Assembly: GCA_004321845.1 (NCBI GenBank)
Contig: SHBL01000005.1
Span: 1-36,960, forward strand
Direction of reading: 5' to 3'
DNA from: SAR86 cluster bacterium
GTDB lineage: Bacteria > Pseudomonadota > Gammaproteobacteria > Magnimaribacterales > TMED112
Length of the DNA stretch: 36,960 bases
In this document: positions 2,129-3,111 of the stretch, piece after piece
Position numbering within the stretch: position 1 is the first letter of the stretch
Layout of the letters: every line of letters starts with the position of its first letter
Translations under genes and position numbers: made by a program
The notes under the pieces: generated by a model
The model's database searches: none
What the model saw: only the letters and a program-made list of their open reading frames with translations
Told to the model about the DNA's origin: nothing

Positions 2129-2928
2129 TACACTTGTTCTCCTATAATTAATGTATCACCATCAAAAGAATGTGGTGGCACTTCAAGGTTAATTGGTGCT
2201 GGAACGCCTTTATATACTCTGCCAGCAAGATCAAATTTTGAACCATGACATGGACAGAAAAAACCGCCTAGCCATTCCTCATCCCAAGCTTTTGGTTCTA
2301 TTTCAGGATGATATTTGGGTGCACATGAAAGATGTGTACAAACACCCTTCAGAACTGTAAATTTTTCATTGGAAGATCTTGCAATGCCTTCAGACAAAGC
2401 TGGATCCGTGACTCTATCATTTAATTTAGGTAAGTTATCTAATGCTTTCTTTGTTTGATGAACAACAAAGATAGGAGTTCTTCTCCACTCAACTACAGCC
2501 ATAGCACCAGGATCAAGTTTTGAAAGATCAAATTTGACCGATGCACCTAGAGCTTTTGCTTTTTCACTTGGATTCCATGCACTCAGAAAAGGAACAGCAA
2601 ATCCTGTTACAGTCACTGCGCCCATAAGCCCTGAAGTGATCATAAGAGCTTTACGCCTTGTGTTATCAACTTTGTGATTATCTGCTCCAGAATTAACTGT
2701 TTCTACTAATTTGTTTGTGTCTGTAGCTACTTCACCTGTGAACAATTCATTCTTCCATTGGAAAAGATTTTTTTCAGCTTCTTTTTTGTCTGTTGTCTTG
2801 AGACTCTTTTTATGAATTTGCCCATCTATATTTAAATAACCCCAATAAAATGGCGATTTATCCCTAGTGTACAAAGACATTCCATCAAGAATATGAATGT
2901 GTTTTTTCCCTTGCTTATTTTTTGACAT
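2128..2928 (-). CDS. petA: Rieske iron-sulfur subunit with atypical ~90-aa N-terminal extension before the Tat signal
   Basis: Rieske motifs CTHLSC and CPCHGS; twin-arginine motif TRRKALMITSGLMGAV at residues 90-105; residues ~12-65 look like an integrase arm-binding domain. Confidence 0.95.
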   Translation of the reverse strand: MSKNKQGKKHIHILDGMSLYTRDKSPFYWGYLNIDGQIHKKSLKTTDKKEAEKNLFQWKNELFTGEVATDTNKLVETVNSGADNHKVDNTRRKALMITSGLMGAVTVTGFAVPFLSAWNPSEKAKALGASVKFDLSKLDPGAMAVVEWRRTPIFVVHQTKKALDNLPKLNDRVTDPALSEGIARSSNEKFTVLKGVCTHLSCAPKYHPEIEPKAWDEEWLGGFFCPCHGSKFDLAGRVYKGVPAPINLEVPPHSFDGDTLIIGEQV

Positions 2929-2954
2929 TTTGAACAGTTGGCTAGGTGTTCAAA
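2929..2954. promoter_or_regulatory. Dyad TTTGAACA-N10-TGTTCAAA immediately upstream of petA start
   Basis: Perfect 8-bp inverted arms at 2929-2936 and 2947-2954, abutting the petA ATG (2926-2928). Confidence 0.5.
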
Positions 2955-3111
2955 TTAGTGCGAAACCTATCCAATATATTCCTCTTAAAACTATATGTTC
3001 AGTATTATATATAGATTAATATTAAAATAAAAAGCTTTTTATTAAATAATCTTTATAAATAATAATTTTGAACAAAAATTAGAGTATATTTCAAGGTGTT
3101 CAAAGATAGAT

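Follow-up and report, generated by a model that had tools for sequence, protein, structure and literature searches.

A captured integrase-type domain on the Rieske protein of SAR86 bacteria may confer autoregulation on petA

The petA locus of a SAR86 cluster bacterium raises the question of why a respiratory Rieske protein should begin with a domain of the kind that opens tyrosine integrases; a DNA-binding-type domain on the Rieske subunit of the bc1 complex is surprising by itself. The window, the whole stretch of 36,960 nucleotides analysed here, is a contig from a 657-kb genome of 72% completeness. On its minus strand the genes rplM and rpsI are followed by petA (2128-2928) and then by the cytochrome b gene (884-2128). 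The petA product has 266 amino acids from its ATG and is composed of an integrase-type N-terminal domain, a linker, a Tat/TM signal and a Rieske [2Fe-2S] domain; the twin-arginine motif TRRKALMITSG starts at residue 90 in the list of open reading frames, as the preliminary description had reported. Residues 1-66 (2731-2928, minus strand) make up the integrase arm-binding-type domain, with a predicted beta-beta-beta-beta-alpha order, and residues 67-88 (2665-2730, minus strand) a fast-evolving linker predicted to be disordered. Residues 89-266 (2131-2664, minus strand) hold the twin-arginine/TM anchor and the Rieske domain with its CTHLSC and CPCHGS boxes. Residues 90-261 score 186.7 bits on the NCBIfam model TIGR01416 (Rieske_proteo), whose cut-off is 97.4, and residues 1-89 are therefore extra. 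The Pfam families UCR_Fe-S_N (residues 83-121) and Rieske (PF00355) were also matched; weak matches to Tle3, ATP-synt_Eps and STT3 fell below the cut-off and were set aside. The cluster-binding boxes and the arginine pair are invariant in nine PetA orthologues. With its TIGR01416 match, both boxes and the twin-arginine anchor, PetA is by sequence a true Rieske protein and a subunit of ubiquinol-cytochrome c reductase.

The extension is a translated part of this protein and under selection. As had been noted before, in-frame ATG and GTG codons are lacking between its start and the Tat motif, and only one TTG is in frame; this TTG is that of L63. Across 11 full-length orthologues the mean pN and pS are 0.142 and 0.721 in the domain, 0.541 and 0.587 in the near-neutral linker, and 0.089 and 0.657 in the Rieske core. 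The dN/dS of the domain in the closest pairs is 0.03-0.09, and all linker indels among the orthologues are in-frame. As the domain has a low pN and the linker only in-frame indels, the extension is translated, which the preliminary description had considered likely, and a wrong start codon or an untranslated extension is ruled out by the same data. The substitution patterns show strong purifying selection on the domain. An example of a tryptic peptide from residues 10-60 of PetA is SPFYWGYLNIDGQIHK.

The fusion is present in 14 genomes of the window's SAR86 genus, which rules out an assembly artefact of a single genome; six siblings have petA without the fusion, and one further genome of the genus has no petA in its assembly, many of the surveyed assemblies being incomplete. 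The Rieske proteins of the unfused sibling species have open frames of 191-201 amino acids. The extension is thus no ordinary feature of Rieske proteins, in line with the earlier claim that it is unusual for them, and the proposed in-frame fusion of an integrase fragment to a bc1 subunit holds as a translated, selected feature of 14 genomes. On a single-gene tree the distribution of the fusion in genus g1 takes three changes by parsimony, and the g1 fusion may have one origin. Two assemblies show irregular copies of the gene. Genome G015 (L011, L162) has the domain and the Rieske part in different frames through a frameshift within the linker; either a split gene or an error of assembly may account for it. 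Contig C22 of G163 carries two petA copies of identical score in inverted orientation, probably a palindromic assembly artefact.

The resemblance of the N-terminus to integrase arm-binding domains, proposed earlier from its residue pattern, is borne out by sequence, profile and fold comparisons. The window segment alone matches the N-terminus of a SAR86 integrase from another family with 43% identity (E 3e-13); the matched protein of 382 amino acids has integrase SAM-like domains and lies shortly downstream of a sequence that by eye resembles a tRNA. The search beyond SAR86 was made with the petA-type domain family in 369 Gammaproteobacteria, and all nine non-SAR86 matches of the domain profile lie in frames reading as tyrosine integrases, one of them a truncated frame of 146 amino acids. 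When integrase rows were left out of the profile, the new relatives that it found among 4224 open reading frames were all integrases, and chance similarity is therefore rejected. The AF2 model of residues 1-66 is compact, with four strands and a helix (pLDDT 78), and Foldseek aligned it with phage integrases of BFVD at probability 1.00 and an rmsd of 1.2-1.3 Å over 45-52 residues (E 0.05-0.13); one AP2/ERF protein was also matched. Sequence and fold searches of the PDB with the domain gave no significant match, so the fold support rests on the BFVD phage integrases. In the full-length AF2 model confidence is low beyond the N-terminal domain, with linker pLDDT mostly below 30. The domain scores 14.4 bits against DUF6538 (PF20172), under the Pfam gathering cut-off of 27, and a search of phage and plasmid collections returned zero phage matches and two weak plasmid matches. 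These comparisons and the predicted fold support common descent of the PetA N-terminus and the arm-binding domains of tyrosine integrases. PetA carries the arm-binding-type domain and lacks the C-terminal catalytic domain (R..H-x-x-R..Y); it is not an integrase, because residues 90-266 are a Rieske protein. The N-terminal arm domains of integrases bind DNA arm sites.

Sites of a suitable kind accompany the domain. In unfused siblings petA begins a few bases past rpsI. Fused genomes have an AT-rich rpsI-petA spacer of 155-185 bp with about 20% GC, which measures 183 bp in the window (2929-3111). Two operator-like inverted repeats lie in it: the first, TTTGAACA-N22-TGTTCAAA (3067-3104), stands just past the rpsI stop codon, and the second, TTTGAACA-N10-TGTTCAAA (2929-2954), abuts the petA ATG. 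Between them is a candidate -10 element, TATAAT (3004-3009, minus strand), found at -80/-81 from the petA ATG in 10 of 13 genomes, the other three having it at -91; a generic promoter scan of the AT-rich spacer gave nothing above chance. Across the fused genomes TTGAACAC..TGTTCAA likewise stands on both sides of the TATAAT, one copy some 120-175 bp upstream and the other adjoining the petA ATG, and the four half-sites are invariant in 13 of 13 aligned fused spacers, most of the other spacer sequence drifting. Each of the 14 fused genomes has the paired inverted repeat (TTGAACAC...TGTTCAA) at petA in two places and nowhere else, and all seven genomes of the genus without the fusion lack it; a reversed control pattern has one match across all 21 genomes. 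In the window's 657-kb genome the repeats at petA are the only such pairs. Taken by itself, the half-site TTGAACAC shows no enrichment across the window, with 2 copies against an expected 1.2, the paired pattern being the distinctive one, and since the repeat-count statistic on single upstream regions is weak for the window's petA (p 0.08), the cross-genome tests carry the claim. As these operator-like repeats are unique to the petA locus, DNA binding with regulation is the function that sequence evidence favours among those listed in the preliminary description.

Could the domain instead act on the protein that bears it? It lies beside the Tat signal on a linker that would give it access to partners, so that it might serve quality control of Rieske folding, delay Tat export or assist bc1 assembly, with the repeats belonging to an unrelated regulator. 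The one-to-one co-occurrence of site and domain across fused and unfused siblings speaks against such a role, as do GltD and IscS, which follow the same logic (see below) yet are not exported, and we hold this explanation to be very improbable. A domain left without a regulatory job, gained with the promoter and 5' coding region of an integrase, is likewise quite unlikely. Capture of a 5' end by deletion would yield exactly the observed layout, and the domain is dispensable in six siblings; however, a relic would not be expected to evolve under the dN/dS seen in the closest pairs next to a near-neutral linker, to keep its sites while the remaining spacer drifts, or to turn up repeatedly on different genes that all have sites of their own. 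Regulation through bound DNA remains the preferred reading of the petA locus.

Similar captures are found elsewhere in SAR86. The domain profile finds the petA-type domain on GltD, the small subunit of glutamate synthase (identified by TIGR01318), in 95 genomes of family f3. The direct repeat TGTCATACTNNGTCATAC was sought in 24 f3 genomes and in nine from other families. All 23 genomes with a fused gltD have a single copy, which lies immediately ahead of that gene, and none of the 10 without fused gltD has one; these are the nine from other families and the 24th f3 genome, which also lacks a gltD match. The gene is divergent from gltB in both f3 loci examined (L256, L259), an arrangement in which the gltD sites could act on gltB too. 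Indolepyruvate:ferredoxin oxidoreductase carries the domain in two genomes, with TATACACAG/CTGTGTATA-like repeats preceding its start. By eye, the sites of petA, gltD and the indolepyruvate oxidoreductase have a common ACA(C) core on one strand. CACAC-type repeats precede the starts of integrases that carry the first domain (L015, L238, L241), those of L015 being of the TTAACACAC type.

SAR86 genomes thus also hold integrases with such domains, and both domain and sites are of integrase type, which would allow the fused domain to sit on the arm sites of related mobile elements and so shield the cell from them, or to serve integrases in trans. The paired sites are found only at petA in the 14 fused genomes, however, and the gltD sites only at gltD, and the domain is joined to redox and Fe-S enzymes, not to the products of defence or mobile genes; this makes a role towards mobile elements the least probable of the explanations considered. 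Translational autoregulation deserves somewhat more attention and is still unlikely. The repeat at the petA AUG could act as an RNA hairpin, a counterpoint to control at the DNA level: bound by the domain in the 5'-UTR beside the AUG, it would block ribosome access. The inverted repeat abuts the start codon, folds so well that only 1 of 200 shuffles is as good (z -3.6), and would be transcribed, because it lies downstream of the TATAAT. The other repeat is equally conserved yet lies upstream of the TATAAT, the gltD sites are direct repeats 10 bp apart, the isc sites are in mixed orientation, and DNA arm sites are the textbook target of the source domain family. An Rfam scan at petA matched zero families, which also rules out a known RNA leader.

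A second domain family, surveyed within SAR86, repeats the pattern. DUF6538 is an integrase-type N-terminal domain with only distant likeness to the petA-type domain (hhalign probability 57, E 1e-4) and is fused in SAR86 to non-integrase proteins. The Rieske protein of genus g10 bears a DUF6538 extension (29.3 bits, cut-off 27) and GGGTACA sites, and is a second, independent capture at the same gene. DUF6538 is also found on a GltD-like NAD(P)-binding flavoprotein heading a 2-oxoacid:acceptor oxidoreductase operon, on IscS in part of family f4, and on a small f3 protein with a C-terminal hydrophobic segment. GTACA-type sites reach 10.2/kb in the 250 bp upstream of DUF6538 fusions against 1.22/kb elsewhere in the same loci, with at least one site upstream in 49 of 49 fusion starts, and the DUF6538 integrase L201 has GGTACAT and GGGTACAT ahead of its own start. 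Comparison of the loci thus shows SAR86 captures on PetA twice, GltD, indolepyruvate:ferredoxin oxidoreductase, the GltD-like flavoprotein of the 2-oxoacid oxidoreductase operon and IscS. Integrase front ends with their target sites have been fused repeatedly to redox and Fe-S enzymes, apparently in a way that would let each govern its own gene.

The small f3 protein (L220-L222, L231, L232) has 150-177 amino acids and several GGGTACA-like sites upstream, and may be a tail-anchored, stand-alone form of the same device. In L222 it lies directly behind guaA, and tyrosine integrases adjoin the guaA 3' end in two SAR86 genomes (L143, L144); these neighbours suggest that guaA is a hot spot for integration within the order.

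At the isc locus of family f4, two neighbouring genes are alternative carriers of the DUF6538 domain, and just one of them has it. In one state it is on the flavoprotein, which is divergent from a plain iscS; in the other it is on IscS itself, and the oxidoreductase operon is replaced. The two states are mutually exclusive in the surveyed f4 genomes. The candidate site of the IscS fusion is TGTACC-N20-GGTACA. IscS-borne domains group together across f4 genera, and this resemblance suggests one switch followed by exchange of the locus; independent origins of the IscS fusion in several f4 genera were dropped on the same ground. IscR was not detectable in f4 and is present in most f2 and f3 genomes. 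This co-occurrence suggests that the DUF6538 device may have replaced IscR control at the f4 isc locus. The window's genus has an IscR match in 1 of 21 genomes (G010, contig C22:4991-5389), which may be a stray contig because the genome is listed with 3% contamination. Four f4 loci (L251, L252, L253, L258) have a ferredoxin that appears fused to an IscA-like C-terminus (242-244 amino acids), with no hscA or hscB seen between fdx and ndk; in g14 the ferredoxin and IscA-like genes are separate.

Homology to integrases, purifying selection, co-occurrence of fusion and sites, uniqueness of the sites and recurrence of the capture emerge consistently from the compared genomes. In our judgement, capture of an integrase-type domain has probably given petA negative autoregulation and made its product a bifunctional enzyme similar to PutA, where we infer the binding, the repression and the link to export or assembly. 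The 5' end of a mobile-element tyrosine integrase, comprising promoter, arm-type sites and the arm-domain coding region, would have been captured in frame before petA, breaking the direct rpsI-petA linkage and giving petA its own promoter. By uniting promoter, sites and binding domain, such a captured end would bring an autorepression loop to its new gene, so that feedback already present in integrase genes would have passed to a housekeeping enzyme. The Rieske protein would use the domain as an arm to bind DNA at the two bipartite sites flanking the petA promoter, and petABC transcription would be repressed in proportion to the free or unassembled precursor, until membrane insertion and assembly relieve the repression. 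Against such autoregulation, the Rieske anchor in the membrane would keep the domain from most DNA, so that only the precursor could bind, or only membrane-near DNA be bound. A wider version, in which arm domains are a general modular device of SAR86 through which redox and Fe-S enzymes gauge their own maturation, one that replaces IscR in f4, is possible and rather doubtful; here an apo or unassembled enzyme would repress its own operon, and the cluster-loaded, membrane-inserted or complexed enzyme would release it.

Mobile-element integrases might accordingly have supplied finished feedback loops again and again, domain and cognate sites arriving in one captured 5' end. The setting is core metabolism in SAR86, one of the most abundant clades of the surface ocean, and the proposed loop would explain regulation of single operons in a streamlined genome without dedicated repressor genes. 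The predicted operator sites at petA, gltBD, the 2-oxoacid oxidoreductase operon and isc are open to in vitro testing. In the open-access papers searched, we found none that brings SAR86, integrase and Rieske together and none that mentions DUF6538.

PetA combines features of several known systems. It is similar to tyrosine-recombinase integrases, whose AP2-like arm domains include DUF6538 (PF20172), in domain homology, predicted sheet and helix, and repeats at the start codon; unlike them, it continues from this domain into a Rieske protein, without the SAM-like core-binding or catalytic domain. The DNA-binding domain of PutA is a ribbon-helix-helix. Integrase genes whose promoter overlaps the att region or recombination sites are negatively autoregulated, as is IntS of KplE1 (PMC2951348), and PutA, an enzyme with a DNA-binding domain, represses its own promoter and is switched by its move to the membrane (PMC8249747). 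Given IntS-type autorepression and the PutA precedent, we therefore propose that the Rieske precursor would bind the repeats and repress petABC. As in KplE1 IntS, the putative binding protein has its sites around the promoter of its own gene, whereas the controlled gene is the respiratory petA, with no recombination function left. Two marks of a trigger enzyme are seen in PetA at the level of sequence, namely a DNA-binding-type domain on an intact enzyme under selection and specific putative sites at its own promoter (14/14 fused genomes, 0/7 unfused). Like PutA, it is a membrane-associated enzyme with an added DNA-binding-type domain and with sites only at its own promoter; unlike PutA, it has an integrase-derived domain on an integral bc1 subunit, and its regulation is a prediction. 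The f4 fusions to IscS or the flavoprotein resemble IscR, the Fe-S-sensing isc regulator, in their place at an Fe-S locus where IscR is absent, whereas the SAR86 domain is not homologous to IscR and has no known Fe-S ligand in itself.
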